Source of the DNA: Tomocerus qinae
Lineage: Eukaryota > Arthropoda > Collembola > Entomobryomorpha > Tomoceridae
Reading direction: 5' to 3'
DNA: 64,000 nt
NCBI GenBank assembly: GCA_020055645.1
Contig: CM034547.1
Location: 61,973,884-62,037,883, forward strand
A program made the position numbers and the translations under genes. Of the stretch, positions 6,001 to 35,700 are shown in pieces (the first letter of the stretch is position 1; each line of letters opens with the position of its first letter). The notes under the pieces were generated by a model. That model was given only the letters and a program-made list of their open reading frames with translations, ran no database searches and was not told the DNA's origin.

Positions 6001-6509
6001 AGTACGGACTAGTATCTTTGTAACTACGAGCACATCCTAGTAAAGGTAGCCTACTTTACTTTTTTCTCTATTGCTTGATTCTACTCACACTCTGCTGCAT
6101 ATGTATGTCACATCCCCTTTCTCACTCACCAAGGTGCAATAACTAACTAAATACATTCAATACTCTTTCTATTCTGCAACGGTACATTCATATAAAACAG
6201 AACTGGAACTTAGCACGCGTAAAATGTTGAAATATCATCATGGTGAGCGTAGAACAAAGTGTTTGCTGTAGCTACATAGTAGTAGTTTATACAGAACATA
6301 TATTTTGTATTATAGGTTACAAAGTAAAAAAAGTCTTTTCATTCTCTGTATTCAGTATTGCTTTGAAGCAGTAGTCATGTCTATTTATATTATTACTTAC
6401 AGACGACGTGACGTAAGTAAAGTATGTTTTGAATTATCTTTATTTCACCAGCAGGTAGAGAGCTAAACTACATTACACTACTGAATTACTGCATCTATGT
6501 ACTGAAAGG
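1..6509. other. Non-coding DNA, probable intron of the kirre/roughest-like gene
   Basis: No coding region or RNA gene is recognisable here. The DNA is AT-rich with stop codons in all frames, and the short open frames have no domain or compositional sign of being genes. Because the host gene runs leftwards from 18210 and its next exon is not visible, this stretch is most simply part of that gene's intron. A NotI-type octamer (GCGGCCGC) at about 3298-3305 stands out in base composition but has no associated gene. Confidence 0.55.
6506..6509. repeat. Target-site duplication, left copy (AAGG)
   Basis: AAGG immediately precedes the TG of the 5' LTR and is repeated directly after the CA of the 3' LTR. 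A 5-bp reading (AAAGG) is possible if the terminal A of the LTR is assigned to the target, but TG..CA termini favour 4 bp. Confidence 0.85.
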
Positions 6510-6651
6510 TGGAAGGTAAATCCCGGCCTGTTGTCCAGGACTCACCTTCCCACGAGATACAAACACTACCTCATGGTAGTGTTCTTGCCACGTCTCTTCT
6601 CCTCTTCTCCGTCTCATCTTCCTCCCACACCATACACACTATCCCTATACA

Positions 6652-6657
6652 TATATA
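6652..6657 (+). promoter_or_regulatory. TATA-like element of the 5' LTR
   Basis: TATATA lies in an AT-rich part of the LTR about 120 bp before the polyadenylation hexamer, the arrangement expected for U3-R. Several nearby ACTATA repeats make the exact choice uncertain. The same site recurs in the 3' LTR. Confidence 0.35.
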
Positions 6658-6776
6658 CAACTATAACTATACTATAACTATACTAGAACTAACTATATTA
6701 TTCATGCACTCTGGACAATCAAACATTCCATTTATTCCTCATTCTCTCTTGGACTGTTGGGGACATACTTAGTCCC

Positions 6777-6782
6777 AATAAA
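6777..6782 (+). terminator. Polyadenylation signal AATAAA in the 5' LTR
   Basis: Canonical AATAAA within AGTCCCAATAAAGC. The equivalent copy in the 3' LTR should end the genomic transcript. Confidence 0.6.
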
Positions 6783-7093
6783 GCTAACTTAAACATTCAC
6801 TCCAATCTCTCATTCTAACTCTCATTCTCGGATTCATTCTACTTACACACATTCGGGGAACTAAGCATACTTCGGGACTCATACACAACCGCAGACATAC
6901 CCGGGTAACAGGCACACTCACATACACACCAGGATAGTCCCTCACATTGGGACAAGGACCGGACATCGTCACAGGACCGTGACCAACCCAGCCAGCCGTC
7001 AACACTGCCCGGTAAACGGCAAGACAGGTACGTACAGCTAAGTACGTGGCATACGGGGCATTCGGGGAGTAGGGAACAGCTACTCTACCCGCA

Positions 7094-8548
7094 TTGGGAC
7101 CGCGACAGCCGAACCGGGCAACTTCGAAGAGTTCGTTTTTTTAAAATTAAATTAAATTTAAATAAAATTAAATTAAATTCAATAAATATTTAATTACTTT
7201 CGTTCTTTTCTTTTCAGCCAAACAAAAGGAAAATTTTTTTTGTGGGTCACACCAGGTACCCTACTACGAAAAAAATTTTCTTGGCTTAACTTAATTATTA
7301 TTATCTTATGCCTAAACTAAAATTAAATTATTACATATAATTAAAAAAAAAAACACTCAATTTTCTTTATTTTTGAATTCCCTTGCTTCTATTCAGAAAA
7401 TACAAGCAAGGAAAAGCATAATTCTACGAAAATAAATATAGGGAAATCCAGGAAATCCCCTAAATTTAATAAAATCATTTAGGATTTAGGAATTAAATTA
7501 AAATTTTGATTTTTTTTGATTTTCTTGGATCGTCAAGCAGTAAATACACTGCGAAAAATTTTTCTTTTGGCCACGCCAGGTACGTTACGTACATGGGTTA
7601 TCTCTGGCCATAATTAACTTTAAATATTTCAATTAAATAATTTTCTATAGTTAAGGGTGACTTGACACTTCACAGAAAGTCAAGCCAGCCTTAATTAATC
7701 ATAATTCAGTTAGGAATACATTTACCTACATAAATAATTGTTATTTTCCCAAAAATAAACACTTTAGAGGAAAGTATTTCCGCATTTTGGTAAAATCTAC
7801 CCGTCCCCCTGCGCAAATTTTTCTTAAATTGTAAACACTTATAGAATTAAAAGCATAATAAATTCAAAGTACTAATAATATTGTTCTAACAGGTATTGCA
7901 GTACTACAGCCCAGAGACGGTCCTCAGTTTAACAAAAACGGAAGGATCTCTTTGGAAAAATATACAGTTAATTAGGTACAGCTTTAGAACTTACGAAATA
8001 AATTCAACACAATTATTTAATAAATATTTCTATAAATAAATACAGTACAGAATCTAATTGCACTTTACTTATTAGTTTTTTACAGCGAACCGGGGTAGCT
8101 TTACTAATTTTCGAACAAGGAAAATTCAAGTAACACCTGGAATAATTTTGAGAAAAAAGGAAAAACTGGTAACAATCAAAATAATAATTTATAATAATAT
8201 TAAGTATACCTATATAATTATATTATGAGTATCCCCGCATACCATACCCTCCCATAAGTAAATTATATAGATATAAGGGTAACATAGGAAGGTAGTTGAC
8301 CCCGAAAACTTTTGTAAATTAAGTTTGGAAAATACCATTCTGTTGATTTACATTAGTTATTTCTTTTTGACGAATCTTTATCGAGTTTTGAACCGACAAG
8401 ACTTGATTACTTCATTTGTTCTTTTTCTGAATATTCTTGTCTGGACACTCCGGATTTTGGAATTATTCAAATTAATTTAAATTTATAATTAAAGTAGTAA
8501 GCAAAGGGACAGCTACCTACCACACATGCATATGCATAATATTTCATA
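7094..8548 (+). other. Retrotransposon 5' leader (1.45 kb, non-coding)
   Basis: This long stretch lies between the LTR and the first ORF and has no ORF above about 60 codons. It holds an A/T-only tract (about 7135-7196), an 8-bp perfect hairpin CCTTGCTT/AAGCAAGG (7381-7388 with 7404-7411), and two copies of a 15-bp module matching at 13 positions, GGTCACACCAGGTAC (7245-7259) and GGCCACGCCAGGTAC (7569-7583). Each module contains a splice-donor-like CAG/GTAC. Acceptor-like pyrimidine tracts plus CAG occur at about 7201-7217 and 8071-8085. The region probably carries the packaging signal and splice sites, which is inference from position. Confidence 0.75.
7095..7112 (+). other. Candidate tRNA primer binding site
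   Basis: TGGGACCGCGACAGCCGA starts one base after the LTR. TGG is the complement of a tRNA CCA end, and this is the expected place for a minus-strand primer site. I could not match the following bases to a particular tRNA. Confidence 0.45.
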
Positions 8549-8818
8549 ATGCAACGTATCACATTTCAATTTTTGGCTAGTCCATACTTCTTGCAACACG
8601 GTTTTCTTAAAGTTGTTGTACCTCAACCTGATCGTCCAATGACATATTTAGATTTTATTATGTCCACTCAACTTCAAGATATGTTTAATCATCGTCTTTT
8701 CGCATCCGACCAAGAGTTTTCAACTTTCATTGGATGTCTTCATTATTGTAATTTTCGTAATTTTGAATATTACAGCATTTTTGACATTGATGCTAATATC
8801 TTGGCACAATATTCATAA
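8549..8818 (+). CDS. Pre-gag small ORF A (89 aa), unknown function
   Basis: An ATG-initiated frame of 89 residues, the first ORF of the retrotransposon. I do not recognise the protein. It is rich in Phe and Tyr, with no signal peptide, membrane segment or zinc motif. It is clearly related to the next ORF: both begin MQRI, share a Pro-x-Phe-x-Gln-x-Gly block near residues 12-18, a VVV block (22-24 here) and an NFE-aromatic-YS block (71-76 here). This points to a tandem duplication followed by strong divergence. It ends in TAA 15 nt before the next ATG, and the intervening codons are stop-free and in the same frame. Pre-gag proteins are unusual for Ty3/Gypsy; accessory, capsid-assembly or silencing-suppressor roles are only guesses. 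Confidence 0.8.
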   Translation: MQRITFQFLASPYFLQHGFLKVVVPQPDRPMTYLDFIMSTQLQDMFNHRLFASDQEFSTFIGCLHYCNFRNFEYYSIFDIDANILAQYS

Positions 8819-8833
8819 TTTTCTTCATTTACA

Positions 8834-9115
8834 ATGCAACGCATTTACATTCATACACTAAATAATCCATTGTTTTTTCAATTCGGAACTGTTGTTGTTA
8901 GGCCTACACAATTACCTGCTATTACATTTCACCAATTTGTAGCAACAGAGTTCCAAACACTTTATAACAATAAATTGGAAAATATTTATTATATTCCATA
9001 CTTATGCGCATTGTATGACTACGGACTGAAAAATAATTTTGAATTTTACAGTACCCAGTTCATTTACTGCGACGATTTAGTTGACACACTTAACATTAGT
9101 GGATATACCAACTAA
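8834..9115 (+). CDS. Pre-gag small ORF B (93 aa), paralogue of ORF A
   Basis: An ATG-initiated frame of 93 residues between ORF A and gag. It shares with ORF A the MQRI start, the Pro-x-Phe-x-Gln-x-Gly block, VVV (residues 20-22) and NFEFYS (68-73), at similar spacing. No known domain is recognisable and composition is again aromatic-rich. The sequence before its ATG (TTCTTCATTTACA) resembles that before gag (CTCTTCATTA), so the duplication may have included the start context. Gag begins 21 nt after its TAA, in the same frame and with no stop in between. Expression by reinitiation, leaky scanning or readthrough is possible; the sequence alone does not decide. Confidence 0.8.
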   Translation: MQRIYIHTLNNPLFFQFGTVVVRPTQLPAITFHQFVATEFQTLYNNKLENIYYIPYLCALYDYGLKNNFEFYSTQFIYCDDLVDTLNISGYTN

Positions 9116-9136
9116 ATTTTTCAATTCTCTTCATTA

Positions 9137-10735
9137 ATGCCATCTCGGGCTGAAATTCAGGCTGGAGATAGAGCACAAAGACTTGAACAACGACGCCGCC
9201 GAGAAATTATTGATGATCGGGCCGCGCTTAGATGCAATAATAGTATTCATCAAAATAATTTAGATTTAAGCTTCTTGGAAATTCGCCTTGCTCACGTTGA
9301 TGAAGTCATTAACGCTGTAGTAAATAATTTGGACTTCCAAGCTCCAGATATTCCTGTTCATCAAATTGTTGAACCAATTCATCATATAAATCCAATTCAA
9401 GACAATTTATTCATCATGGCTAATGCTAATAGACAATTGCCTTTAGTTTTGCCTCCTGCCATGGGCAATCTAGATGATGATCAAATTGCAGCCATTAACA
9501 ATTATTTAGGTGCACAAATTAATGCAGCACAAGCGAACGTCATCGTTCCGCACGGAAAGGCTATTATTCCTATTCCAAAATACAAACCACATGAACACAC
9601 AGCTACTACGTATTTAAACGACATTCAGCTTTATTATGAAGCCATGAATTTTAGACCAGCTGTGTATGTCAATATGCTACCTACCATCTTATCATACGAA
9701 CAAAGACTCTGGTTCGATAATATTAGGACTCCTGAACTTACTTGGGATGAATTTAGAGTTAGATTCACTGCTAAGTATGATGATTGGGATGCTACAGAAA
9801 ATAGAGCGAAGATTCTACGTGAACGTCGCCAAAGAGAAAACGAACCTGTAGAGCAATTTGTCTACGAAATGGTTCGATTAGCACGTCAAGTGACACCAGG
9901 AGAGGCTGAAGCTATTTCAGTACTCCGTGCTAAAAATGCATTAGTCCCGGACTTGAAGTTAGCCATTTCTAACAGTGCACAAGCAACAGCTGAAGAGTTG
10001 ATTGCTAGTGCTGGTAGAGCTTTGCGCGATTTGCGTGAAAGAGATACACTGAATGGCATATCTTCTAAACTCCCTCCTCTCAATGAACGAGAAAAACGAC
10101 AAATGCAAAAGCAATCGTCTAATTCAAAACCACAGGGCAACCAATCATATAATGCTCGTGGTCAATCCAATAATCAAAGAGGAAACTTCAGAGGACAAGG
10201 AAATTCTGGGAATTTCCGTGGTCAGGGATATTCTGGTAATTTCAAAAGTCAGAATCCCACATCACAGTTCCAAAATCAAAATTCCTCCAACAACAATAGT
10301 AATAATGATGCAAACACTGGGAATTCTTCACAGAACTCCAGAGGGAACTCTAGAGGTAACTCTGGCACTGTTATGACAAGAGGTCAACCTACGAGAGGAC
10401 AGAATTCCAATTACAGAGGAACTACTTCTCGTGGTAATTTTCGAGGCCGAGGCCAAGCTATCAGTAAATATGATGCAAATGCATTCTGCACTATTCATAA
10501 TACTTATGGCCATCACACTCAACATTGCCGGAAACCAATAGCTATGGCTATTCAGGAAAACGAACACAATGACGATAGTTATGTTGAGGACATTACGTCT
10601 CAGCATGACGATTCACAGCAACTCGGGCCACCGCCTGGATTTCCGGATCGTGTGCAGCCTGCTGTGCAATACGCTGATTTAAACTTTGCAGGGAGTGGGG
10701 GAAGTCAACCAGGTCCTTCCTACTCCCGGTATTAG
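9137..10735 (+). CDS. gag: Gag polyprotein (capsid and nucleocapsid)
   Basis: A 532-residue structural protein that should form the virus-like particle and package the RNA. Residues 1-90 hold a strongly basic helix and a His/Ile-rich linker. Residues about 145-310 resemble the retrotransposon gag (capsid) family, with the hallmark Trp-Asp-Glu-Phe near residue 203 followed by charged helices. Residues about 330-440 are a low-complexity Asn/Gln/Gly tract with repeated RGQ and RGN elements, typical of RNA binding. A single zinc knuckle follows: C451, H454, H459, C464, a C-x2-H-x4-H-x4-C arrangement instead of retroviral CCHC. The ATG at 9137 is the first in frame after the previous TAA. The last 58 nt overlap the pol frame and contain the frameshift site. 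Confidence 0.93.
   Translation: MPSRAEIQAGDRAQRLEQRRRREIIDDRAALRCNNSIHQNNLDLSFLEIRLAHVDEVINAVVNNLDFQAPDIPVHQIVEPIHHINPIQDNLFIMANANRQLPLVLPPAMGNLDDDQIAAINNYLGAQINAAQANVIVPHGKAIIPIPKYKPHEHTATTYLNDIQLYYEAMNFRPAVYVNMLPTILSYEQRLWFDNIRTPELTWDEFRVRFTAKYDDWDATENRAKILRERRQRENEPVEQFVYEMVRLARQVTPGEAEAISVLRAKNALVPDLKLAISNSAQATAEELIASAGRALRDLRERDTLNGISSKLPPLNEREKRQMQKQSSNSKPQGNQSYNARGQSNNQRGNFRGQGNSGNFRGQGYSGNFKSQNPTSQFQNQNSSNNNSNNDANTGNSSQNSRGNSRGNSGTVMTRGQPTRGQNSNYRGTTSRGNFRGRGQAISKYDANAFCTIHNTYGHHTQHCRKPIAMAIQENEHNDDSYVEDITSQHDDSQQLGPPPGFPDRVQPAVQYADLNFAGSGGSQPGPSYSRY
10678..10727 (+). promoter_or_regulatory. -1 programmed ribosomal frameshift signal between gag and pol
   Basis: The heptamer T-TTA-AAC (10678-10684) is in the correct gag-frame phase for simultaneous -1 slippage. 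After a 6-nt spacer (10685-10690), GGGAGTGGGGG (10691-10701) can pair with TTCCTACTCCC (10717-10727) to give an 11-bp stem with three G-U pairs and a 15-nt loop. The heptamer starts right after the last stop codon in the pol frame (10675-10677), so slippage is possible only within the short window down to the gag stop at 10735. Confidence 0.9.
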
Positions 10736-13700
10736 ACACAAAACTTCATGCATCCAATTTACCTTTAATTACTATTCTCTCTAAAACTAAGAAATTCACA
10801 GCCTTAATTGATTCTGGTTGTTCTAAATCCATTATAGAAAAATCATGGGCTAACCTACTTGGGAAACAAATAGATAATAATGTAGAAAATTGCACTGTTG
10901 CTAATAATGAACAGATGCAAACCGTTGGAACTGTGGAAATCGAATTCCAAATGGGTTCCAAACGGGTTGTACATAAATTTAAAATTGCAAATAAGTTAGC
11001 ATTTCCTTGTTTCATTGGGAATGATCTGATTAGGCTATTGGGAATAATACCTAATCAGAAGAGAAGCACTTTTTGGTTCGACGACTCTCCGCAAATTACG
11101 TATCCATTAAAACCAGACAATACTGTCAACTTCTCGGTTTTGGATAGACCTACTGCTGAGTTCGACGAGCATTCATTAGAAAATAAGTTAAATGTATTAT
11201 TTCAAAAATATCCAACAGTAGTTAGGCCAAATGGCGAATTTGGAATTACGAGTTGGGCTTATCACAAAATTGAAGGATGTGATAAAGTTGTATATGTTAA
11301 GCCGTGGCCAGTTAGTCCAACTGTTGCCACTGAAATTAAAAAGCAAATAGACGAGTTATTGAGAATGAAGCTCATTCGGCCAAGTAGATCTCCCTACGCT
11401 ACTAATATTGTTTTGCGTAGGAAGAAGGATCCAAATAAGTGGCGAATGACGATAAACTACAAAGGCATAAATGCAGAAACTACTAAAAATGCTAATCCTA
11501 TGCATAATGCAAACCACATCTTACGTCTTTTGCCAACTGGAGGTTGGTACAGTGTCATAGATCTACAATCTGGATTTTGGCAAATTAGACTACATAGAGA
11601 TAGTATTGCAAAAACTGCATTTCACGCATGTGGACAGCTGTGGGAGTGGCTTGTCATGCCATTCGGGTTACGTAATGCCCCAGCTAGTTTTGTCACTTTG
11701 ATGAATAGAGTCTTAGCTGATTGTATAAATAAGTTTGCTTTCGTCTTCATGGACGACATTGTGATTTTTTCAAAAACAGTTCAAGAACACTTCACTCACT
11801 TAGAATCTGTATTTGATAAATTAAAGTTAGCCGGGTTAACTATTAATAAAGAAAAATCACACTTCTGTAAGCGAGAATTATCGTTTCTCGGTCATATCAT
11901 CTCACAAGATGGTTTAAAAAAGGAACCAGAGAAAGTTCGGGCTATTGTAGATTTTCCACGCCCGGCGAATAAAAAGGATATTCTTAGGTTCCATGGACTA
12001 TGTGTCTGGTATTCGTCATTTATTGATAAATTCGCAGACAAGTTTGAACCAATGTATAGATTGTTGAAAAAAGGAGTTCCTTTCATTTGGAGCCAATTGC
12101 AAGAGAATTCTTTCAATATTATGAAAGAAGCTATGTGCGAAGATGTAATGTTACATGGACTAGACTATAATTTACCAATTATTGTCAGGACCGACGCTTC
12201 GGATATTGGAATCGCCGGCGTTTTGGTCCAATTTGTCCAAGACTTGGAAAGAGTTATCTTCTATGCTAGTAAAGTACTGTCCAAAACAGAGAGAAATTTA
12301 TCTGCATGTGAAAGAGAGTTATTAGCTATTATTTGGGCAATTAATAAATTTAGTGCATATCTTTGGGGTGAAAAATTCACAGTTTGGACAGATAGTAAAG
12401 CACTCACATATTTAAATTCTAATAAAAATAACAGTAAAAAATTAACTAGATGGGCACAGGAAATAGATGAATGGGGTTGTGAGTTAAAACACGTCCATGG
12501 AAAGGACAATGTAGTAGCAGACGCTTTATCACGAGCGCCAGTATCACCTTGCGAAAATGAGCCTGATCATCTTATTGGAGCTAGGGATATCATGTACACT
12601 CCAACCAACTTTCTAACCTATGTACCTTCGTTTTTCGATAGGCTTTTGGCTGCTCAGAAAATTGACAGCGAAGTAAATTCAATTATCGATTCAATTAAAA
12701 ATTCTACAGTTTCATCCCGTGCACAGGAGAAACTCAAAACTCAATATATAATTAAAAACAGTTTACTACATAGACATGTTAAACCCTTAACTGGGCGTAG
12801 TACTACTAGCATAAAATTTAAATCTTCATCTAGCTCTGCTCCACGACCGACAAGCCAGGATAATTTACACACAGGTCAACAACTACACAAAAACCTTGGA
12901 CTGCAGCCAATGTGTCAGTTGAATGTTGTACCGTATGTACCAGAAGGAATATTAAGGAAAGAGTTGTTGGAAATGTTCCATGATGCACCTGAGGGTGGTC
13001 ATTTCTCTTCCGAAAAGACTAAGAATAGATTGAAAGTACGATTTTTCTGGAATAATATGAATAAGGAAATCGCTGACTATGTCAAATCATGTGATATATG
13101 TCAGAGACATAAATATGATACTTTGAAACCGCAAGGGTTACTTGGATCTGTTGAACCAGCCAAGTTCATTTTCGAAAAAATCTTCATTGACTTCATTGGT
13201 CCACTTCCAGTGAGTTGTGGAGGTCGTAAGAATAGATTTCTGTTAGTTGTTATTGACGAATTGAGTCGCTGGGTGGAACTCAAACCGATGCCGTCGGCGA
13301 CTGCAAAACGCGTCAAGGACTTTCTCGAAGATGACATATTTTGTAGATTCGGTAGTCCAAAAGTTTTGATTACTGATAATGGATCTCATTTTGCTAACAA
13401 AACAATCAGAAAGTTATGTAAAGAATGGGGTGTTAAACACAATTTCACAAGTGCTTATCACCCACAGCAAAATCTTGCTGAACGAACAAACAAAGACTTA
13501 AAGCGTATAATTTCTTGTTACGTAGGCGACAGACATGGAAATTGGGATGAGCATATCCAACACTTCGCTTTAGCCTTACGTACTATGGTTCATAAAACTA
13601 CGCAAGTCACACCTGCCTTATTGAATCTTGGAAGAGAAATTCAACTTCCAATAGATAGAACTATGAATTTCGACAATTCTACTGTGACTGATATTCAATT

Positions 13701-14187
13701 ATCAAATGCACTTTCAGACGTGCCATCTTCTTTGATCGAAGTCATTAAATGGGTTCGAAATAATATAATTAATGCACATACTGTAACTAAAACTCGCTAT
13801 GATAAATCACATAGAGACGTTCAATTTAAAATTAACGATAAAATATTAGTTAGGAATAATCAAATATCAGATGCGGATAAACACGTAACTGCTAAACTTC
13901 AACCTAAATGGATTGGTCCTTATAAGATCAATAAAATCATTTCTCCACTTACTTATACTGTAGATATACCTAAAGAATCTAAAATTAATGTTAAGAGACA
14001 TGTGGCTGATTTAAAACCATATGTCGAACGTGTAAAATATAATACATCTCTGCCTATTTCTCTGGCTGAAGCACAGTTAGGGAAACAGCCAGAAATTCCG
14101 ATTGGGCGACAACTTAGAGCTCGTTCTAGAGTTGATTATCGCGTTTTGGGAGGTGTTAGACCGAAAAAATCTAATAAAAACCTTTGA
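10684..14187 (+). CDS. pol: Pol polyprotein: aspartic protease, reverse transcriptase, RNase H, integrase
   Basis: Made as a Gag-Pol fusion by -1 frameshifting; the first pol-frame codon after the slip is at 10684, giving about 1167 pol residues. The first internal ATG (10915) would delete the protease active site and is not the start. Protease: Asp-Ser-Gly at residues 43-45 and a Gly-Asn-Asp block near 118. Reverse transcriptase: about 205-410, with catalytic FMDD at 355-358. RNase H: about 500-620, with D504, E545 and D570 and a final ADALSR block. A Ser-rich linker separates it from integrase: His-His-Cys-Cys zinc domain near 765-805, then D836, D898 and E933 (34 residues between the last two), then a GPY-type C-terminal domain with KWIGPY near 1075. 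No chromodomain is visible. The frame is intact and all catalytic residues are present. Confidence 0.96.
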   Translation, partial: LCREWGKSTRSFLLPVLDTKLHASNLPLITILSKTKKFTALIDSGCSKSIIEKSWANLLGKQIDNNVENCTVANNEQMQTVGTVEIEFQMGSKRVVHKFKIANKLAFPCFIGNDLIRLLGIIPNQKRSTFWFDDSPQITYPLKPDNTVNFSVLDRPTAEFDEHSLENKLNVLFQKYPTVVRPNGEFGITSWAYHKIEGCDKVVYVKPWPVSPTVATEIKKQIDELLRMKLIRPSRSPYATNIVLRRKKDPNKWRMTINYKGINAETTKNANPMHNANHILRLLPTGGWYSVIDLQSGFWQIRLHRDSIAKTAFHACGQLWEWLVMPFGLRNAPASFVTLMNRVLADCINKFAFVFMDDIVIFSKTVQEHFTHLESVFDKLKLAGLTINKEKSHFCKRELSFLGHIISQDGLKKEPEKVRAIVDFPRPANKKDILRFHGLCVWYSSFIDKFADKFEPMYRLLKKGVPFIWSQLQENSFNIMKEAMCEDVMLHGLDYNLPIIVRTDASDIGIAGVLVQFVQDLERVIFYASKVLSKTERNLSACERELLAIIWAINKFSAYLWGEKFTVWTDSKALTYLNSNKNNSKKLTRWAQEIDEWGCELKHVHGKDNVVADALSRAPVSPCENEPDHLIGARDIMYTPTNFLTYVPSFFDRLLAAQKIDSEVNSIIDSIKNSTVSSRAQEKLKTQYIIKNSLLHRHVKPLTGRSTTSIKFKSSSSSAPRPTSQDNLHTGQQLHKNLGLQPMCQLNVVPYVPEGILRKELLEMFHDAPEGGHFSSEKTKNRLKVRFFWNNMNKEIADYVKSCDICQRHKYDTLKPQGLLGSVEPAKFIFEKIFIDFIGPLPVSCGGRKNRFLLVVIDELSRWVELKPMPSATAKRVKDFLEDDIFCRFGSPKVLITDNGSHFANKTIRKLCKEWGVKHNFTSAYHPQQNLAERTNKDLKRIISCYVGDRHGNWDEHIQHFALALRTMVHKTTQVTPALLNLGREIQLPIDRTMNFDNSTVTDIQLSNALSDVPSSLIEVIKWVRNNIINAHTVTKTRYDKSHRDVQFKINDKILVRNNQISDADKHVTAKLQPKWIGPYKINKIISPLTYTVDIPKESKINVKRHVADLKPYVERVKYNTSLPISLAEAQLGKQPEIPIGRQLRARSRVDYRVLGGVRPKKSNKNL

Positions 14188-14261
14188 ATTTAATGTACAA
14201 ATTGTAGCTAAAATGGATACGTAACATAACTGTAAATAATTACTCTATTCTAATTATACGT

Positions 14262-14282
14262 ATCATTTTGGTTTGTTAATAG
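14262..14282 (+). promoter_or_regulatory. Candidate splice acceptor for the exonuclease ORF
   Basis: A T-rich run ending in TTAATAG lies just upstream of the ORF3 ATG at 14288. Joined to a donor-like CAGGTAC in the leader (7255/7256 or 7579/7580), it would place ORF3 first on a subgenomic RNA, as for env of retrovirus-like elements. This rests on consensus resemblance only; the tract is not a strong one. Confidence 0.35.
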
Positions 14283-14287
14283 TTATT

Positions 14288-16003
14288 ATGTGGACACGGA
14301 AACAGGAAAAAGCTCTCGCCTACAATAAGAGCAAAAGGAAAGGTCCACGGGTTGAGATCCGTCCTCAAGATCTTTCTCCTTCTCTATTAGAGGCCAGGCT
14401 TAAAATTAACAAACTCTTTCCTTTCTCTACTAATCCTAATGAGGACCTAATTTATTCATGGCAACCACCAATTTCTGTCTTCAAACCTTTTTCCATTGCT
14501 AGAAATAAAATCTTTAAATTAGTTGGGTCAGTTAAAGAGTTGGAAGAAGCAGTAGCTATCATTTCTCAATCAGAAGTAATCGCAGTTGACAGGGAAGGGA
14601 ACGCGGACGACAGTTATGCTGACATAACGTGCTTTGTCCAAGTTTCTACTACTACGCATGATTTTGTAATAGATGCGTTAGAACTGCATAAAGAAATTAA
14701 AACTCTTCTTTCACCTATCTTCGAGTCCTCTAAAATCATAAAATTGTTTCATGATGCTAAAAATGATCTGTGGTCTCTGCAGAGAGATTTTCACATCTTC
14801 TCAGTAGCTGTGTTAGACACACAAGAATATTTCGAGATTTTAGAAGGGCCTAGATTAACTAAAGTCGGTCTTGGGGAATTATGTTTACGCTATATGAATA
14901 CAGTCGTGGACAAGTCCGGACAAGTGTTCGACTGGCGCTTCAGACCCCTGCCCTCTAACATGTTAAAATATGCTAAATTAGATTCTCAACTTCTTCTTTC
15001 AGTCTTTAATTTTATGAACAGAGAGGCCAGAAAGAGAAATCTTGACTTGACCGACTTCAAGTTTGTAAAATCTTCTGACTTCACTCTTTCTGTGTATAAA
15101 AGACCTACTATTAAGTTTTTGAGTCGTCTTAATGCAGCAATGCATAGTTTAGAGATAACCTACAGAAAAGCCTATGATCTTTCTCACCTCCATATCAATC
15201 TCTTTACGTCCCTCTTATTATTCGTGGACACTCTTGCTCGTAAAAGAGATAAACCAATCGCAAAAGTGTTGTCTGATGCGAAAATTGGCATATTGATCGC
15301 CGAAAAGCCTAAATCTCTCGAAGATCTTTCAACTCCTCTTCACTGTATTCGGTCATGGCCATTTTCGGATGTTCAATCTCTTTTCTGTGAACTACACCGT
15401 CACCAACGCTCCAGTTTCTCCGACAATGGCGAAGTAGCAGACTCCATTGAATACGTCTTCAACCTCTCTGATGACGATTCATGGGCATCCCCTCCTCCAA
15501 CCCCACGCACTGTGAACTTTCCTTGTATTGACCTTGGATCGTGGGGCGAGGAAATGACTGACGTTTCTTCTCCAGCAAATCTCCAAGTTGCAGTTCCGAA
15601 GACATCGCCACGCTTTGTCAACTTTTCCGATGCCAACTCGGAATCGTGGCCAGAAGACTCAGGAGCAGCAGCATCATCATCAACAAGAGCAGCAACGACA
15701 ACCACGGCAACAACACTTTCATCAATACCAGCTCCTCCACCTCCTCCATCAAATCATAAAACATGTTATTTGTATAATACTAAGATTATAGATAAGACAT
15801 GTAAACATTGTAAATCTATTGCTAGAGGTAGGAGACGATTGCGCTATCGCGCTAATTTAAAAATTAGGAGAGCTGATGCCAAGTCTCGGGGTGTTACTCC
15901 CCCTAGATTATATCAGAGTCACGGGCCAATTAAATACGCTCGGAGCATAGCCAGGTTTATTGCCCATAAAGAGAGTAAGAGGCTGGCTCGGCTTAATTTG
16001 TAA
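14288..16003 (+). CDS. ORF3: Rrp6/RNase D-like DEDDy 3'-5' exonuclease with HRDC-like domain
   Basis: 571 residues from the first ATG. Residues about 80-245 form a DEDDy exonuclease domain: motif I VDREG (D101, E103), motif II in HDAKND (D160), motif III YAKLD (Y228, D232). The stretch TCFVQVST after motif I and DWRFRPLP before motif III are signatures of the Rrp6/EXOSC10 and RNase D family, which trims RNA 3' ends with two metal ions. Residues about 299-355 resemble an HRDC domain, which follows the exonuclease in those enzymes. The C-terminal third differs from cellular Rrp6: an acidic Ser/Pro/Thr-rich region with three similar motifs ending in W399, W419 and W454, a poly-Pro run, C493-x11-C505-x2-C508, and a highly basic tail. 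It has no signal peptide or membrane segment, so it is not an envelope gene. It follows pol after a 100-nt gap in another frame, so separate initiation or splicing is needed. A role in processing 3' ends of element RNA or cDNA is inference. Confidence 0.9.
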   Translation: MWTRKQEKALAYNKSKRKGPRVEIRPQDLSPSLLEARLKINKLFPFSTNPNEDLIYSWQPPISVFKPFSIARNKIFKLVGSVKELEEAVAIISQSEVIAVDREGNADDSYADITCFVQVSTTTHDFVIDALELHKEIKTLLSPIFESSKIIKLFHDAKNDLWSLQRDFHIFSVAVLDTQEYFEILEGPRLTKVGLGELCLRYMNTVVDKSGQVFDWRFRPLPSNMLKYAKLDSQLLLSVFNFMNREARKRNLDLTDFKFVKSSDFTLSVYKRPTIKFLSRLNAAMHSLEITYRKAYDLSHLHINLFTSLLLFVDTLARKRDKPIAKVLSDAKIGILIAEKPKSLEDLSTPLHCIRSWPFSDVQSLFCELHRHQRSSFSDNGEVADSIEYVFNLSDDDSWASPPPTPRTVNFPCIDLGSWGEEMTDVSSPANLQVAVPKTSPRFVNFSDANSESWPEDSGAAASSSTRAATTTTATTLSSIPAPPPPPSNHKTCYLYNTKIIDKTCKHCKSIARGRRRLRYRANLKIRRADAKSRGVTPPRLYQSHGPIKYARSIARFIAHKESKRLARLNL

Positions 16004-16126
16004 CCCAAATATTTTTGTACAGGGTAATGGGTTTCATATCACTGGTGGGAAATATTTCTTTTTGTTAACCCCATTATTTTTTTTCCCCTACTACCCGGGG
16101 ATTATTTCCCCCTGGGGATTATTTTT

Positions 16127-16135
16127 GAGGGAGGA
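16127..16135 (+). other. Polypurine tract (plus-strand primer)
   Basis: GAGGGAGGA lies three bases (CCC) upstream of the 3' LTR, where the plus-strand primer should be. It is short, and the CCC between it and the TG is somewhat unusual. The preceding 3' UTR (16004-16138) is T/C-rich, with a GGGGATTATTT block occurring twice. Confidence 0.6.
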
Positions 16136-16138
16136 CCC

Positions 16139-16721
16139 TGGAAGGTAAATCCCGGCCTGTTGTCCAGGACTCACCTTCCCACGAGATACAAACACTACCT
16201 CATGGTAGTGTTCTTGCCACGTCTCTTCTCCTCTTCTCCGTCTCATCTTCCTCCCACACCATACACACTATCCCTATACATATATACAACTATAACTATA
16301 CTATAACTATACTAGAACTAACTATATTATTCATGCACTCTGGACAATCAAACATTCCATTTATTCCTCATTCTCTCTTGGACTGTTGGGGACATACTTA
16401 GTCCCAATAAAGCTAACTTAAACATTCACTCCAATCTCTCATTCTAACTCTCATTCTCGGATTCATTCTACTTACACACATTCGGGGAACTAAGCATACT
16501 TCGGGACTCATACACAACCGCAGACATACCCGGGTAACAGGCACACTCACATACACACCAGGATAGTCCCTCACATTGGGACAGGACCGGACGTCGTCAC
16601 AGAACCGTGACCAACCCAGCCAGCCGTCGACACTGCCTGGTAAACGGCAGGACAGGTACGTACAACTAAGTACGTGGCATACGGGGCATTCGGGGAGTAG
16701 GGAACAGCTACTCTACCCGCA
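16139..16721 (+). repeat. 3' LTR (583 bp)
   Basis: Same TGG..GCA ends as the 5' copy. The first roughly 445 bp and the last 56 bp are identical to the 5' LTR; the seven differences fall in the stretch corresponding to 6955-7037. Confidence 0.97.
16406..16411 (+). terminator. Polyadenylation signal AATAAA in the 3' LTR
   Basis: The equivalent of the 5' LTR hexamer. It is the most likely signal for 3' end formation of the element's transcripts. Confidence 0.6.
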
Positions 16722-16725
16722 AAGG
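16722..16725. repeat. Target-site duplication, right copy (AAGG)
   Basis: Matches AAGG at 6506-6509, showing that the two LTRs belong to a single insertion event. Confidence 0.85.
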
Positions 16726-18209
16726 GCACAAAGAGGTGAAATGAATAGTTACTGCTCTACGTCTGTGCTTAGAATACGTAGGTGTCCATTTCTTCAAACG
16801 TCTACATGTATATCTATCTACATGAAAGGAATGTGTTTGCAGTCTACACCTTTCTATTTCTCCAAGACGGAGAAATCACTGATTGTGAATGTATGTATCT
16901 GCTGTTTCTCAATCTGTGTCCGCTCTGGATGTGTGTGTACGTAAGAAATGCAGGTTGGTAGTCATCACAGCGTTTGTATGTAAACCATAGTGGCTCACTT
17001 GACTTTCCTCGACTTTTCCCAGTTTCTTTTCCTTTGGTTTGACTTGGTGATAGGAAGAAAAGGAAATGTAAATGTAAATGCAAAGTGTCTATATCACTCA
17101 CAACAGTCAGTTCACTTCAAAGCAGGAGGCAATACATGGCAAGGCCTTCCATTCCAATGCAATTCAAGGAAACCGACCAAAAGGAATTCTTTTTCTCGCT
17201 TTCTCTACCACTCGCACTCTCTCAGATTTGAAAATCAGTATGTGGAGAGTGTCGTAACTGTCAAGCTATTCCGTACTTAAGCTACAATTCCATGAGGATA
17301 TATAGCTTACGCCATACCAAATTACTTCCCTACTACTACTACTCAGAAAACACACACATTATGCTATCCTCAGACTTTATATTACTAACAATAAGTAATA
17401 TACTGCATACATTGACTTTTCTATATATCTATATTATCGCAGATGCATCGTAATAATATAATATACTAGTGTATATGTGATGCAATAGAGATTTCTTATT
17501 GTTAGCTGCGTTCATAAAGTATCTAGACCTACTATTTCTCTTTCCATGACCCAAATTTAGAGTTCTTCTTTAATATACACTGTGCAGTAGCTACCTATCT
17601 ACAATAAGTACATTTCACAGACAGAAAAACAAGGAAAAGACGTAGCTGCATGCTCCACTTGCATTTATAAGCTCTAGATGATATGTGTGAAAGAGACTGG
17701 TCGACAAGATACACAAAATAAGTAGGTCCAAATGTCCTAAGCTAGTTAGAACTCTTTCCTAACTACCTACTACTACAACCATTTCATTTTTCTGACATAT
17801 TCCCAAACCGTATTGAGACTCAATTTTCTCGCTCAGGAAAATAACTAGGAATATATTTCAACGAATACAGATACACTAACGTAGCTGTAATTATATCATC
17901 GATTGCACCACGAAAGATATATCTATATCTTCACTTAACACTAACTTTCCAACCTATACGTAGGATTTTTGTAATAAGGGTGCCTTGTGAGTTAATAATT
18001 CAAAAAACTATGTACGGTACTCCATGAACGTTGTAGATGTCATGTACCTCCATTTTGTCAGCCTCTACTATAAATTGAGAATACAACTAGACAAATGGAG
18101 GGAGACGTATGTTAATAGATATTATGAGAGTATATATAATAGATTTGTGATCTGATGTGAAGAAGGTGATGCTCCATTATGGATTAATAAATAAAAATGA
18201 ATAACTTAC
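16726..18209 (-). other. Intron following exon C of the kirre/roughest-like gene
   Basis: No coding region is recognisable. On the minus strand it begins with the donor GTAAGT (18209-18204). It continues past the retrotransposon insertion and off the left edge of the window. A short (TAC)n run is present at 17331-17344. Confidence 0.75.
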
Positions 18210-18672
18210 ATTTGATATCCAAGGTCTCTGACTCTTCACTTTTGCCAACTTGATTGGAGACTTCACACTTGATGATGGCATTATGATCGGATCTGGTGAC
18301 ATTGTGAAGGATGAGATGAGTGCCCTCTGCATTCTGGACTTGGTCATTTTTGAACCATCTGTAGGTGGTTGTGGGTGGGTTAGCCTCTGCTCGACAAGAG
18401 ACTCGGACCGAGTCGTACTCTTGTATCTTGGGAGAAAGGATTTTGACGGTGACTTTAGGAGCATACTTGACTTCAAGACGGATGAAAGCACTCATGACTT
18501 CTTTGGCAGGGCGATTGTGAGCTTGGCATGTGAACGTTTTGTTGTGATGCTCTTTCTTCGGCCGAAGTTTGAGAATGGAGCGAGCATTGAAACGCTTCCC
18601 ATCGTCCAGTGGCTCCTTTACTGTCTCCACACCCGACTTGATCTCTTGCCCGCTCCCATCAATCCATGTTAT
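18210..18672 (-). CDS. kirre/rst: kirre/roughest-like gene, exon C: end of Ig2 and complete Ig3
   Basis: This 463-bp exon has an acceptor TTTCTGTGGCAG ending at 18673 and a donor GTAAGT starting at 18209. It enters in phase 0 and leaves in phase 1. The translation starts ITWIDG, the second half of Ig2 with its Trp, then PKKEHHNKT and FTCQAHN with the second Cys. EVKYAPKV, a hallmark junction of the Irre/Kirre family, leads into Ig3 with Cys in VSCRAEA, Trp in YRWFKND and Cys in IIKCEVSN, ending ETLDIK. N-glycosylation sequons are seen at HNKT and HNVT. The match to Drosophila Kirre/Rst and vertebrate Neph proteins is by motif order recognised by eye. Ig4, Ig5 and the membrane segment are outside the window. 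Confidence 0.93.
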
Positions 18673-20737
18673 CTGCCACAGAAAGAAAAGAAAGAAAAAT
18701 TCAATTTGAGATGTCTTCATCTTGTCTCCATCCCTATCTCACATATCTCCCATACAGAGATACTCACATCCGATAAACCTCACTCATCCCACTCCATCCC
18801 ACCCACCTTACACATACCATCCAGTTTACATTATACCAATCTTATCTCCGACTCTTATCCATCTCTGTCTCTCCCTATCTATCTATCTCCTTTCTCCTAC
18901 ATACTCTTCTCCATAGAAAAATCTCATGCTACACGTCTCCTCAGTCATCTATTTATCTTTATCTCCCTATCTATCTCACTGACTCTCTCTCTGCACTCCA
19001 CTTCCTTTCTGTCTTGTTTTCAGTTAAGTGGAGTTGACTTGACCTCTTCCTCTATATACCCTTTCTCATATATGCATTGATATCAAATAGGAGACTGATT
19101 TTAGCTTGATACACACACAAAACATATTGCATTATTTTCTGTGTACATTTCTACATATGTATACACAGACAAATAATATCTGCAATTTCTTGTGATAATA
19201 GAATAGAATACAATATGCACGCTTTAATATGCTACGATATTATTTTATTATACACATGTACCATGTACTATTCTTGGTATTTGTCTATGTTATTTATATA
19301 CGGACCATAATATTATTAATATATCATGTTGTGCAACTGTAAGCTGAGTTTGATTTGTTCTCTTTCTGTCCAGCTAGTTTGTGTGATGTAGTTTTGTAGA
19401 CAGGATGTAAGTATGTAAGTTCTTGTACACAGCAGAAACAGTTCAATTTCATCGTAGATCTACTAACAATACGTAAAGTCCGTCTGGGTTCAGCTGGTTG
19501 TTGTTGGTTGACGAACGACCTGTCAAAATCAGATCCTTCGCTAAGATACGATATGTCATGTTCTTATTGCTATATGCGTCCAGCAAAAGAAAATAGAGAA
19601 ATGGCATTCTTATCTCCTCTGCTCTACTGTCTTGATACTTCCTTCTACAAATATTAACTTTCCCAATGATAAGTATCGTACACATACCAATGCACTTATT
19701 ATTTAATGAATCTATCTTTAGAATTCCCTATCCAATTTTCCTTCACCAAAATATAGAATTTCTAATTACCAAAGATATCTTTACTAAAGCACCTAATCAC
19801 AATTAGTACTAGTAGCCCTACATTTTTCTCTGCAGAAGTAATGGATGGATGGAATTTAGTCATTATCTTGAACAAGTTTTGAGCGATTCAACCTAATCCA
19901 GGTCAAGCCAAGCAGAAGGAATAATTGCTCATTCTTTCTTCATGTTTGTTCTCCCTTTGCCCTTTTTAGATGGACAATTAAGACTGGGCTGGAGACTCAT
20001 GTTTTGTAAGGTGTAGGTAGCTTTCATTGTTACACTTAGTTTCAGACACATCTATAATTTAATGGGTACACTAGATGAATGTATATCCAGTATAGGAACA
20101 GTAACGTCATTTCTTTATGACACCTTTTATCTCACTCTGCGGGAAATGTCATGTACTAGTGCCAACACCTTGTCAAACCTTCACATGTCCCTTTTTGGCT
20201 CTCTCCATTATCAGCCCTGCCTTTCAAAAACCGGAAGAAAAAACTTAATGACTTTATTGAGCTTCCCTGTCCGTCCGTTTATTCTGTAAACTAGTCTCTC
20301 CTTTCGTGTGACTATCTACCTAATAGTTTGACTTAGATCACTACGGAACTTGGATTGATGAAATACACAGGTAAGTTAGCTCATCTCTATCTGCCTCCCA
20401 TTCTTATATAGGCCAACGTTTTAATTTGTATGGGAAAGAAGAGTCAACCTGCCATGTCCCGTCATGTCAGTGACACGGAGTAGCTACATAGAGGCCGAGC
20501 ACAGAACACACGTCGCAGCATGTTTATCTGTCTATCTCCCTTCACCTTATAAGATTGCTGTCATGTACTCTCATGTCATCGGAAATCTTTTCATCTCACT
20601 TCACAAACCATAACGTATATTTATGGCATACTATATACTTTCGGTATGAATACTATTAACTTGATTACGAATATAAATGCCAGGCTAATCCAGCACATTT
20701 TTTGACTGAAACTAACTCAATGGTTATTAAAAAATAA

Positions 20738-32250: not shown

Positions 32251-32341
32251 CTGCATCATAAATGTCAGAGCATATTAATCAATTTCCATACTTGCCCTCA
32301 TTTTGCATCAGCAGAGTGTGTCATGCATATTTATTACATAC
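32251..32341 (-). other. 91-bp intron between exons A and B
   Basis: GTATGT at its 5' end (32341-32336) and GATGCAG at its 3' end (to 32251). It interrupts the Gly codon after the EEEG block in phase 1. It is tiny beside the neighbouring introns. Confidence 0.9.
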
Positions 32342-32765
32342 CTTCTTCTTCACTTCCAATCATTCTGTATCTATCGTATCCGACCAGACTTCGATCCACT
32401 CCCATTCCGAACCCGTCTCTCGTCCATTGCAATGTCCCTGCTTTATTGATGACGCTGCAAGCGAGTGTGACAGTGTCACCCAGAGTTGCAGTCTGATTGT
32501 CGGGAGTGCGTCGAAATTGTTGCTGGGGAACATGGGTAGCTGTGGAGAGCCGAGGAGCCCAAAGAAGCATTAGCCACCAAAGGAGCCATGAGGGATACAG
32601 TCTTTTATTCCATAGTACACTTGAACTTCTACTAAGTCTTATATTTCTTCCATTTCTTCTAGATATACTCGTTAGGCTACAACAATTAATAGAGGAGCTT
32701 AAGAGGCTGTTGCTGCCGCTACTACTGCGTTCTGTAGTCTCAGCCATTTGGCACCATCCAGAGTC
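32342..32765 (-). CDS. kirre/rst: kirre/roughest-like gene, exon A: start codon, signal segment and most of Ig1
   Basis: Coding starts at the ATG at 32747-32745 (context CCAAATGGC, a good eukaryotic start), 18 nt inside an exon whose acceptor GAATTGCAG ends at 32766; an upstream 5' UTR exon is therefore expected. The translated part is 135 codons plus one base. The first 48 or so residues are Ser/Arg-rich, followed by a hydrophobic signal core LYPSWLLWWLMLLWAP. Ig1 follows: FRRTPDNQTA (an N-glycosylation sequon), Cys in VTLACSV, Trp in LQWTRDGFG and RMIGSEEEG at the donor. An in-frame ATG 33 nt further upstream lies before the acceptor and is probably intronic. The n-region is long for a signal peptide. 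Confidence 0.92.
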
Positions 32766-35700
32766 CTGCAATTCATCCAACCAAAAATAATATTTACATT
32801 AGTCTTAGGAATACACTACATCAACTTAACCCATCTCTCCCTACTTTTACTCATCAACTTCCCTCGCTGACATACTCCATCCAACTCTCACCATTAAATT
32901 ACTCCGAATATGTAGACTCAAGTTCACGTGCATTAATACCAGCTTTTTCTTATAACTTCCACATTGTATAAGGATATCTATGGGATTTGATTATATTAAA
33001 CTACTAATGTATCAAATCCTAGATAGAAGGATAGGAGAGACTCAAGATCTACCTTCTCCCAAATAATCACCTTCAACCCTTTAAGCCTCTCTATGATCCT
33101 CACACAACAGTCACAGGCACTTTACAATAATATTTCTATTACTCCTCCACTCCTTCCCGTACTCGCACTTTATTTTCAACGAAAACACGCATGCATGGCA
33201 AACTTATTCCACCACTTTCAGCACATCCACTATGTATATTTTCCTTTGCACATCCTTTACTTTTTCATTACCCACTACCAACCAGAATAATATGTGTAAT
33301 CTAACAAATGACAGAGCGAGGAAACTAATTTAGCCCTTCACTACTCATTTCCCTTTTGTGGCTAATTGCAATTTCCGTTTGAGGAGCTTAAATGGGAAGT
33401 CCTTATAATCTTTTCATCACATCATCTTTGAATACGAATCATTTTTCTCTGCACATACAGTTATCTATTATTGTGCTCTATTGTTAATACTCAAACCTTC
33501 CAGTTCATATATTTGTTAAACTACTAACGATAGAAAATGGAGGCAAAACCCACTTCAAAAATAAAAGCAGTAGAAATAGGTAAATAGAAAATGTTTAACA
33601 GATTAGATGGTTTCGCGACTAAGTATGTTCAGTATGTGCTACACTAGTTACACTACTAGGAAATAAGCTTCATGGGTGTAGTGCAGAAACATTAAAGATT
33701 TTCAGTGGAAGACACTAAGTAGAAGTATTTCTTGTACGCTTCGTACTTTCCTAACATCTTTGCAAAATGTATTCTAGGTATTCAAAATTCTAGGGAATCT
33801 ACTTAGTCTCAGTTGAAGTTACATAGGATTACATCATGAAAGTTGATTGGGGACTTCACTCATGTGGTTTACCAGGCACAAAAGTGCAAGGAGCAGAATG
33901 CGATTTACACGAATTGATCTACCTACAGGATATCCTTACACAAAATTGAAATATTGTGTAGAAATAGGTATGTAAAAGACTAAATAGGTATCCACAACTC
34001 AGAGAGGAAACTACTACAGCACTCTACAAATATGTACCATTAGATGGAAAGCATAAGGAAGCAATAGATAGCAACCTAACTTTGTATATGGAGATTTCAG
34101 AGTAACTTTGTGTAGAGTTAGCTAGGTATCCCTTTATGTTGTCGCTTTCCTTGTAAAGAATCTTTATAGCATATTCTCCTTTCCGTCATTCCATTCCCAA
34201 GTTGGAATATGCTATTTCTTTAGGAATGCATCTACTTATATCTTTCACCCTTTTTACCGCAACAACGAATCAACATCAACAATTCCCAGTAACGGAGTAT
34301 AACTCCTTTAAAACTTGCAACCTAGCTACTTTACTAAGCATGAACTTCAATATCCAATAAGTGAGATAAGGCATTGACAGAGTGCATTGATTGCAAGCGA
34401 ATGTTATTCTGTGCCTAAGAAACCTAGTTGGTGTAGTATTTCGGTGGAAAGTCTAAACTCCATAAACTCGCCTTTCTAAGATTTTACCAAGTATCAAGTC
34501 CTTAAAATGTCTAAATTCATATTTGATAGGAAATCGAATGCAGGTAGATTCAAACGTTATGGGAACTTGAGCTGCTTAACATTGCATAGGCAAAGTTACT
34601 TTTTCTAACGTTGTCACATGAGAATAACAAACTATTATTAACACAAGCACCTAACGTCTTCGATTTTTAAATATATTTAGGAACTCAGAGTCTCAGCACA
34701 ACATTCTCACCACAATAGACAACAAAAGATACACTGATATAGTTACTGTGCAGAACGATATTCTATTCCTGTTGAATATTGGATATCGCTAAAAATAGAA
34801 GTTCTCCCACACAAAATGTAAGAACTTTTTATATGTTGTCATTGTCAGCTAATATTTAGCAGGTAACGACTATGGATATAATATATAGTAACTATATACA
34901 TGAAATATTTTTGTATTGCAACATTTCTCAACTCAGGAATACAATGGATAATACTATAACAGGCAACTATGCATTTTGATCTTACAGATACAGGATACTT
35001 TTGAGACGTAATAAAGATACCTAAATTCTACCTTACTTGTATTCTTTAAGCTAACATTAAATCCAGAATATCTTTCTCCGAAAAATTTGAGCGAAGCGTA
35101 CAATGGACACTTTCAGCTGACGAAGGAAGGGAAGCGAAGAAAGATAAACCAAGAGAAATCATAGCGCTTTAGATGAATCGAGGCATCTAGGAAATGTCGC
35201 AGTTTTTGTGTCTGAAGTTGTAAGAGCGTATAATTCTAACAGTACAAAGTAGCAAACTCCTACGCATTGTAATCTACAGAGTACACAAAAAAGTGATCTG
35301 TATACTAATAATACACCCGTTAGATAGAATTATGCTCGCATAATTGTGCTTTGAAAGATTAAACTTTTTGTTAGCTGCAAACTGGAAATAGAAAATATAG
35401 TGTGGGCTGTAAAGAATCAAAGGAAAAAGAATAAAGCATTCGTAATAAGTACATTACTACTATGAGTGCTAGTCAACATGGACAAATACTAGTTAAAATA
35501 AAGTACAAATAGATAGCAAGTCTTATAAAGCATAACCGTGTAATTGCACTCATTTATAGTAGATGATACTACTTTGTTACATCATTTCTGAGAAAGTAAA
35601 TGGTGACTCCCAAGATACGAGTGGGACAGGAAGAGACATGTTTACTAAATCATTAGATTATTTAAAATTAAACAGACAGCTAGCAAGAGTTTAATTTCTC

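Follow-up and report, generated by a model that had tools for sequence, protein, structure and literature searches.

DEDDy 3'–5' exonucleases are known from several kinds of mobile element. In bdelloid rotifers they form third open reading frames (ORF3s) in the long terminal repeat (LTR) families Juno and Vesta and in Athena/Terminon elements, and the accessible parts of that study describe them as RNase D-like, with the motif DEED, the product of two or more acquisitions and present in Penelope-like elements as well (PMC5408684). The word HRDC is absent from its main text, and its section 3.6, as far as accessible, tests selection on other ORF3 types and not on the exonuclease type. In Laccaria and Ectocarpus, DEDDy exonuclease domains lie inside the transposases of Dada DNA transposons, according to the available text of PMC3706591. 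Here we describe a stretch of 64,000 nucleotides from Tomocerus qinae (contig CM034547.1, positions 61,973,884 to 62,037,883; the whole stretch is referred to as the window), in which an intact-looking Ty3/Gypsy LTR element at 6510–16721 codes for gag, pol and an ORF3 that appears to be an Rrp6-type DEDDy exonuclease.

Like Juno and Vesta, the Tomocerus element is a retrovirus-like LTR element with a DEDDy 3'–5' exonuclease ORF after pol. A preliminary description of this DNA had pointed to the rotifer LTR and Penelope-like precedent, and the accessible text of PMC5408684 bears this out. Set against the published description, the Tomocerus ORF3 differs in its intact DEDD(Y) residues and in being Rrp6-like with HRDC; it also differs in the CCHC motif of many siblings, in being largely co-inherited with pol and in its purifying selection. 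With Dada it has in common that a mobile element codes for a DEDDy-type 3'–5' exonuclease with catalytic residues, but the Dada domain, in the available description, sits within the DDE transposase of a DNA transposon and is not a separate LTR-retrotransposon ORF. A literature search of titles and opening abstract lines, which reached subscription papers and preprints only in small part, brought up no arthropod LTR element reported to have an exonuclease ORF. The accessible portions of PMC5718144, PMC6431247, PMC6338049 and PMC7998251 add no arthropod case, and those of a springtail genome paper (PMC5644144) name Gypsy as the most abundant LTR family and leave exonucleases unmentioned. New here are the probable host lineage, the Rrp6-type enzyme along with its HRDC and CCHC, a long history of joint inheritance with pol, and evidence for purifying selection.

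The exonuclease encoded by ORF3

ORF3 (14288..16003; features lie on the + strand unless stated otherwise) codes for 571 residues and begins about 100 bases 3' of pol, within the LTR pair. The open frame extends from 14240 and has its ATG at 14288; the stop codon ends at 16003. The preliminary description had placed a DEDDy exonuclease in the env position of a Ty3/Gypsy element, and the LTRs, an AAGG target-site duplication, the gag–pol order and the location of ORF3 after pol agree with that placement. Pfam and PDB matches and the catalytic residues all identify the protein as an exonuclease. The core (residues 83–246; 14534..15025) matches Pfam DNA_pol_A_exo1 at E 2.8e-33 and 115.6 bits (cut-off 23.6), which puts the profile check proposed for residues 80–245 far above threshold. 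The frame is intact, and the catalytic residues of ExoI–III are all present in the window copy at the numbers first reported (D101, E103, D160, Y228 and D232); they read D, E, D, Y, D and not the DEED variant.

The core is followed by an HRDC-like region (residues 304–348; 15197..15331) that gives a weak Pfam match below threshold in the window copy (E 0.011, 16.1 bits; cut-off 23.8). HRDC passes the Pfam cut-off in three of the eight siblings scanned (L029, 27.9 bits; L034, 27.1; L036, 37.2), stays below it in L010, L025, L040 and L043, and is unlisted in L015, so the HRDC-like domain claimed earlier stands for some siblings and is sub-threshold in the window copy itself. Upstream of the core lies an N-terminal module, RPQ...NP...I..W.P (14360..14515), which is common to siblings and weakly to Folsomia ORFs; all 12 representatives have it, the RPQ part varying in three. 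A profile of this module recovers most other ORF3s of the same genome, with edge matches at L047 (0.002) and L031 (0.004). By eye the module looked like the pre-exonuclease part of Rrp6, but the profile gave no support (E 3.7 for the host RRP6), and in pairwise comparisons with six Rrp6 proteins one alone reached z 3.

The protein ends in a basic tail with a CxxC (15728..16000), with 24 K/R and 3 D/E in 91 residues. The CxxC occupies the place of a C-x2-C-x4-H-x4-C (CCHC) motif that stands at the C-terminus of many siblings, 17 of the 37 stop-free frames described below; one of 34000 shuffles has such a motif. The six CCHC-bearing representatives hold 14–30 K/R within their last 80 residues.

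In its core, ORF3 resembles Rrp6 more closely than RNase D. Its best PDB matches are Rrp6/EXOSC10 (3e-27), and the EXOSC10 alignment takes in the HRDC part as far as residue 344. The exonuclease segment scores 233–275 against six Rrp6-type proteins and 138–141 against two bacterial RNase D proteins; RNase D has the same order of exonuclease then HRDC, but the ORF3 core scores with it only about half of its Rrp6 score. The match to NCBIfam rnd (TIGR01388; E 2.7e-21, 76.2 bits) is far under the cut-off of 298.95, and the tree places ORF3 on the Rrp6 side (94/89, not starred). Capture from RNase D is disfavoured by these family and segment scores and by the tree. The HRDC segment is at least as like RNase D (z 7.3 and 6.3) as Rrp6, for which z is 5.7 with fish EXOSC10 and with a plant RRP6-like protein, 4.7 with Blyttiomyces and 1.1–2.7 with the other three. 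Cellular Rrp6/EXOSC10 shares the exonuclease core plus HRDC, but ORF3 differs in its own N-terminal module, in its basic or CCHC tail, in being encoded by an LTR element and in having no match to PMC2NT (PF08066) among its Pfam matches. PMC2NT is the cofactor-binding domain of animal and fungal Rrp6, and some Rrp6-like proteins lack it. Judged by its sequence, ORF3 is thus of Rrp6 type and not an Rrp6, in keeping with the affinity first proposed.

The host has an RRP6 gene of its own, separate and multi-exon (C4:9054829-9056407), which groups with five other cellular Rrp6 proteins (98/95, starred). A single group of host RRP6 and ORF3s is marginally rejected in a 28-row tree (P value of the approximately unbiased test, p-AU, 0.037). 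Recent capture from the host RRP6 is therefore disfavoured by the separateness of the gene, its grouping and this test. Capture from a DNA virus found no backing either: an Rrp6-core alignment scan of viral contigs gave no relatives, which is weak evidence. Scans of viral and of bacterial/archaeal contigs with ORF3 gave no confirmed relatives, and neither did a scan of viral contigs with pol. A protein-database search with ORF3, in which the 8000 candidates sharing most words were scored, returned five cellular or bacterial proteins, and a region-restricted search returned three cellular Rrp6.

Copies, linkage to pol and selection

We searched the Tomocerus genome (334 Mb in 115 contigs) with ORF3 residues 1–351 and obtained at least 105 matches, from 100% to about 25% identity, many of them in open frames exceeding 500 residues; one is the host RRP6 gene (C4:9055817). 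Forty of these places were examined in detail (41 with the window). At 34 of the 40 sibling loci, ORF3 is preceded on its own strand by Gypsy reverse transcriptase (RT) and/or integrase (IN), which shows ORF3 to be present in sibling elements and not confined to one copy; no RT or IN was found within the examined stretch at L022, L031, L033, L046, L047 and L048. The best ORF3 match is stop-free at 37 of the 41 places and has stops at four. The DEDYD residues are kept in 33 of the 37 stop-free frames, the window included, even in copies only about 25% identical to that of the window, and the four frames without them are L014 (ExoI unaligned), L035 (a short frame), L022 (a fragment) and L046 (a stand-alone copy with DEEFG).

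The linkage is also seen from the side of pol. In an integrase search, a sample in which 106 of 818 candidates were scored and 107 matches listed, 48 of the 51 listed matches with at least 44% identity are followed on the same strand, at 3.5 kb or less, by an ORF3 match, and none of the 56 listed matches below 44% has one downstream; the test used the window ORF3 as query, by which much-diverged ORF3s beside distant pols could be missed. Of the three exceptions, C1:51230396 is followed at a greater distance, about 6 kb, by the ORF3 at C1:51237438. Seen from ORF3, a listed integrase lies upstream in 52 of the at least 105 matches. ORF3 marks a pol clade.

ORF3 and pol also share much of their descent. 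For 25 copies whose RT, IN and ORF3 matches are all free of stops, the two trees have 16 of 22 splits in common, and trees of 12 subfamilies have six of nine, a number reached in none of 5000 permutations. Where the trees conflict, fork support is below 80 in one or both. Because the trees largely agree, one acquisition followed by co-inheritance fits, and the exonuclease was apparently gained once and then inherited with pol, in contrast to rotifers, where acquisition recurred and the ORFs are shared between element types. In the 28-row tree all 18 ORF3-type exonucleases of this genome lie on one side of a branch with support of 82/85 (not starred). A clade of 13 rows (12 pol-linked copies and the Folsomia protein P0028) was rejected (p-AU 0.0001), the near-identical L033 and L048, which have no pol, nesting inside it.

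An arthropod-type host, as the preliminary description assumed, is supported by pol itself. Among the best 120 of 845 matches in a pol protein search, the nearest pols come from springtails and metagenome contigs, and in a tree of 46 pols the window copy falls in a group of 11 (98, starred) that holds all five springtail rows, from Folsomia and Orchesella, which fits a springtail host. These springtail Gypsy elements have the nearest named pols and are represented here by gene-model proteins; no ORF3 emerged for Orchesella. One of the 120, the Folsomia candida pol gene model P0028, is the only one with an annotated exonuclease domain: DNA_pol_A_exo1 (E 1.8e-12) follows its integrase and spans ExoI and ExoII, not ExoIII. 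ORF3 and P0028 align from residue 24, upstream of the exonuclease, with z 25.9 overall and z 5.0 when the N-terminal part is taken by itself; in neither comparison did any of 500 shuffles reach the score. A single clade of ORF3 and P0028 is neither supported nor rejected (p-AU 0.41; 48/19 in the larger tree). A stretch of a second Folsomia protein, P0057, is 41% identical to the P0028 exonuclease over 91 residues. The ORF3 N-terminal profile places P0057 at the edge (E 1e-3) and P0028 below threshold (0.07). P0057 has no Pfam exonuclease match, and its pairwise comparison with ORF3 was not significant, 17 of 500 shuffles being as good. Pairwise tests gave no support for homology between the ORF3 basic tail and Folsomia tails, or between the HRDC part of ORF3 and Folsomia P0081, although the HRDC of P0081 is just under the Pfam cut-off.

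Selection was estimated as the ratio of non-synonymous to synonymous change (omega) from disjoint pairs of close sibling copies, ten for the ORF3 match region and nine each for RT and IN; deep comparisons with saturated synonymous sites were left out. Pooled omega is 0.169 for ORF3 (bootstrap 0.125–0.225), 0.054 for RT and 0.105 for IN, and dropping any single pair leaves the ORF3 value at 0.155–0.220. A value of 0.43 for the C-terminal part was not used, since it includes the pair L027/L028 (77 non-synonymous counts), which is probably out of register. ORF3 is under purifying selection among close copies. It also changes much faster than pol: non-synonymous divergence (dN) between the window copy and L010 is 0.25 for ORF3 and 0.06 for RT, between the window copy and L015 it is 0.41 and 0.07, and ORF3 branches are 1.1–9.3 times as long as those of pol, with a median of about 5 (14 common splits with a pol branch above 0.02). 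Given the saturated synonymous sites in the deeper comparisons, the excess divergence of ORF3 could come partly from recombination; the agreement of the ORF3 and pol trees argues against much of it.

Some exonuclease frames of this genome stand apart from pol. L047 (G000:C4:1234084-1239748) holds an ORF3-like exonuclease ORF of 386 residues with DEDYD and an HRDC just below the Pfam cut-off, about 1.5 kb downstream of two pieces of hAT transposase on the same strand; a DNA transposon may also carry an exonuclease here, or the neighbourhood may be due to chance. L031, L046 and L051 code for an Rrp6-like exonuclease in open frames of 428–431 residues, and no pol was detected close to them; the DNA similarity of L031 and L046 is limited to 284 bases. 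These copies may have been domesticated, or may belong to a different mobile family. Four dispersed matches of equal score (C1:31817907, C1:114091355, C4:3403126 and C3:10898922, all in G000), each with an open frame of 181 residues, suggest a further repeated family with part of the exonuclease.

Anatomy of the element

The gag, pol and ORF3 reading frames are all open. The 5' LTR (6510..7093; 584 bp, with TG...CA ends) and the 3' LTR (16139..16721; 583 bp) are 98.8% identical, differing by six transitions and one indel. These differences are confined to the last quarter (6954-7037 and 16582-16665), the first 440 bases being identical, and the clustering is perhaps an effect of recombination, conversion or assembly. 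A 4-bp target-site duplication, AAGG, can be read from the sequence at 6506..6509 and 16722-16725. The primer-binding site, placed by position, would be at 7094..7110, starting with TTGGG directly after the LTR, with no tRNA assigned to it; no tRNA genes were found within the window, and no Rfam families at 6400-17000. A purine-rich tract, GAGGGAGGACCC, precedes the 3' LTR (16127..16138).

Two leader ORFs stand upstream of gag, one of 89 residues (8549..8818) with no Pfam match and a related one of 93 residues (8834..9115) with none above cut-off. They are 32% identical over 77 residues (E 2e-6, for the pair alone) and are possibly duplicated accessory leader genes. Gag (9137..10735; 532 residues) matches Pfam Retrotrans_gag at E 1.7e-5. 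The stop-free pol that follows it (10678..14187) has the order protease, RT, RNase H and integrase (H2C2, rve), with an SH3-like end; its protease match is weak (Pfam E 0.03). Pol overlaps gag and lies in the -1 frame, and a -1 frameshift heptamer, T_TTA_AAC in the gag frame, stands at the first base of the open pol frame (10678..10684). A stem-loop 3' of it (10687..10731), in a 63-nt stretch of -19.6 kcal/mol, has unremarkable stability (z -1.26), being equalled by 24 of 200 shuffles. A splice-acceptor-like AG with a weak pyrimidine tract (8 of 12) lies five bases 5' of the ORF3 ATG, at 14281..14282. Donor-like GT sites stand at 6516, 7028 and 7580. The acceptor and the donors alike match at consensus level, which is not evidence of splicing.

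Open frames with Ig domains lie at 18184-18738 (-) and 32334-32798 (-), and the second-best PDB match of the first is the arthropod protein Irregular chiasm C-roughest. The element may sit inside or beside a large host cell-adhesion gene.

Role of the exonuclease and competing explanations

The best explanation, and in our judgement a somewhat probable one, is that an Rrp6/EXOSC10-type gene at one time entered a Ty3/Gypsy lineage and was kept thereafter as its third gene, coding for an active, RNA-tethered trimmer that acts in trans. ORF3 would be a metal-dependent 3'–5' exoribonuclease operating outside the exosome, and its tail would bring the enzyme to RNA. It would be made apart from Gag-Pol, via a subgenomic or spliced RNA, and would serve in trans as an accessory protein. 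As to what it does there, the data argue for a selected function but do not single one out. We tentatively propose that, by trimming or destroying RNA 3' ends, it keeps them from feeding the host's silencing or surveillance of the element, and it is nearly as likely to process the element's own RNA or cDNA ends; the host-directed role is slightly favoured, given that ORF3 is a gene of its own and that its sequence changes quickly while the core stays fixed. More doubtful is the proposal that ORF3 is a zinc-knuckle-guided silencing suppressor that degrades or shortens small-RNA or surveillance intermediates in trans, its fast evolution around an unchanging active site recording an arms race with the host.

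Several observations weigh against the captured-gene explanation or parts of it. The pair L015/L016 supplies 55 of the approximately 117 synonymous changes behind the ORF3 omega, which without this pair is 0.220 (0.150–0.316), and single young pairs are uninformative or higher, window/L009 giving 0.55 from one synonymous and two non-synonymous changes. The fast change of ORF3 fits an arms race but also looser constraint. Among the at least 105 ORF3 matches, 53 have no listed integrase upstream; among these are the host gene, fragments and copies standing alone, as well as neighbours of unscored or broken integrases (for example, L029). The candidate splice sites for ORF3 are weak and at consensus level only. 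Pfam zf-CCHC is listed in just two of the six CCHC copies, below cut-off (E 0.06–0.08), and the full CCHC is absent from the window subclade, which keeps the CxxC and the basic tail. Finally, PMC2NT is also unlisted in three of six cellular Rrp6-type proteins (P0001, P0003 and P0008), so its absence from ORF3 says little.

The alternative that survives best is that ORF3 works inside the particle, where it would trim element RNA, the tRNA primer or cDNA at the 3' end during reverse transcription or end processing; we consider it possible, if rather unlikely. The accessible texts propose RNA 3'-end processing for the rotifer ORFs (PMC5408684) and suggest that in some Dada DNA transposons the exonuclease domain processes 3' ends after cleavage (PMC3706591). 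DEDDy enzymes work on the 3' ends of both RNA and single-stranded DNA, and the CCHC/basic tail of the siblings resembles a nucleocapsid tether. However, particle enzymes are usually fused to Gag-Pol and ORF3 is separate, and a rate of change about five times that of pol is unusual for a core replication enzyme.

It is improbable that ORF3 is a catalytically irrelevant RNA binder, comparable to Maelstrom or EXD1 among the DEDD proteins of animals and kept for RNA binding or ribonucleoprotein assembly. Both HRDC and CCHC are nucleic-acid-binding modules and would suit such a protein, and inactive DEDD derivatives do occur in piRNA biogenesis, according to the accessible text of PMC5408684. Nevertheless, all five catalytic residues are retained in 33 of the 37 stop-free frames, at identities as low as about 25%. 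Very improbable is a replacement of env, with ORF3 aiding cell exit or entry: ORF3 does occupy the env position, but a membrane-spanning stretch is unlikely in the window copy (top 19-residue Kyte-Doolittle mean 1.29), and one of the 12 representatives, L010, reaches 2.24 when its whole open frame, including residues before the first ATG, is taken. Recent random capture of a host gene without function for the element, of a kind mentioned for LTR elements in the accessible part of PMC5408684, has next to nothing in its favour, since the host RRP6 is a separate, multi-exon gene that groups with cellular Rrp6 (joining marginally rejected, p-AU 0.037), and since ORF3 is clade-wide and selected, as the genome copies, omega and the integrase linkage already attest.

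Exonuclease ORFs after pol in LTR elements have turned up, within the literature covered, for bdelloid rotifers only. With one genome that holds a clade keeping the exonuclease, the question of why a retrotransposon retains an RNA-trimming enzyme becomes directly testable, and the probable hexapod setting is useful in that small-RNA silencing can be studied there.

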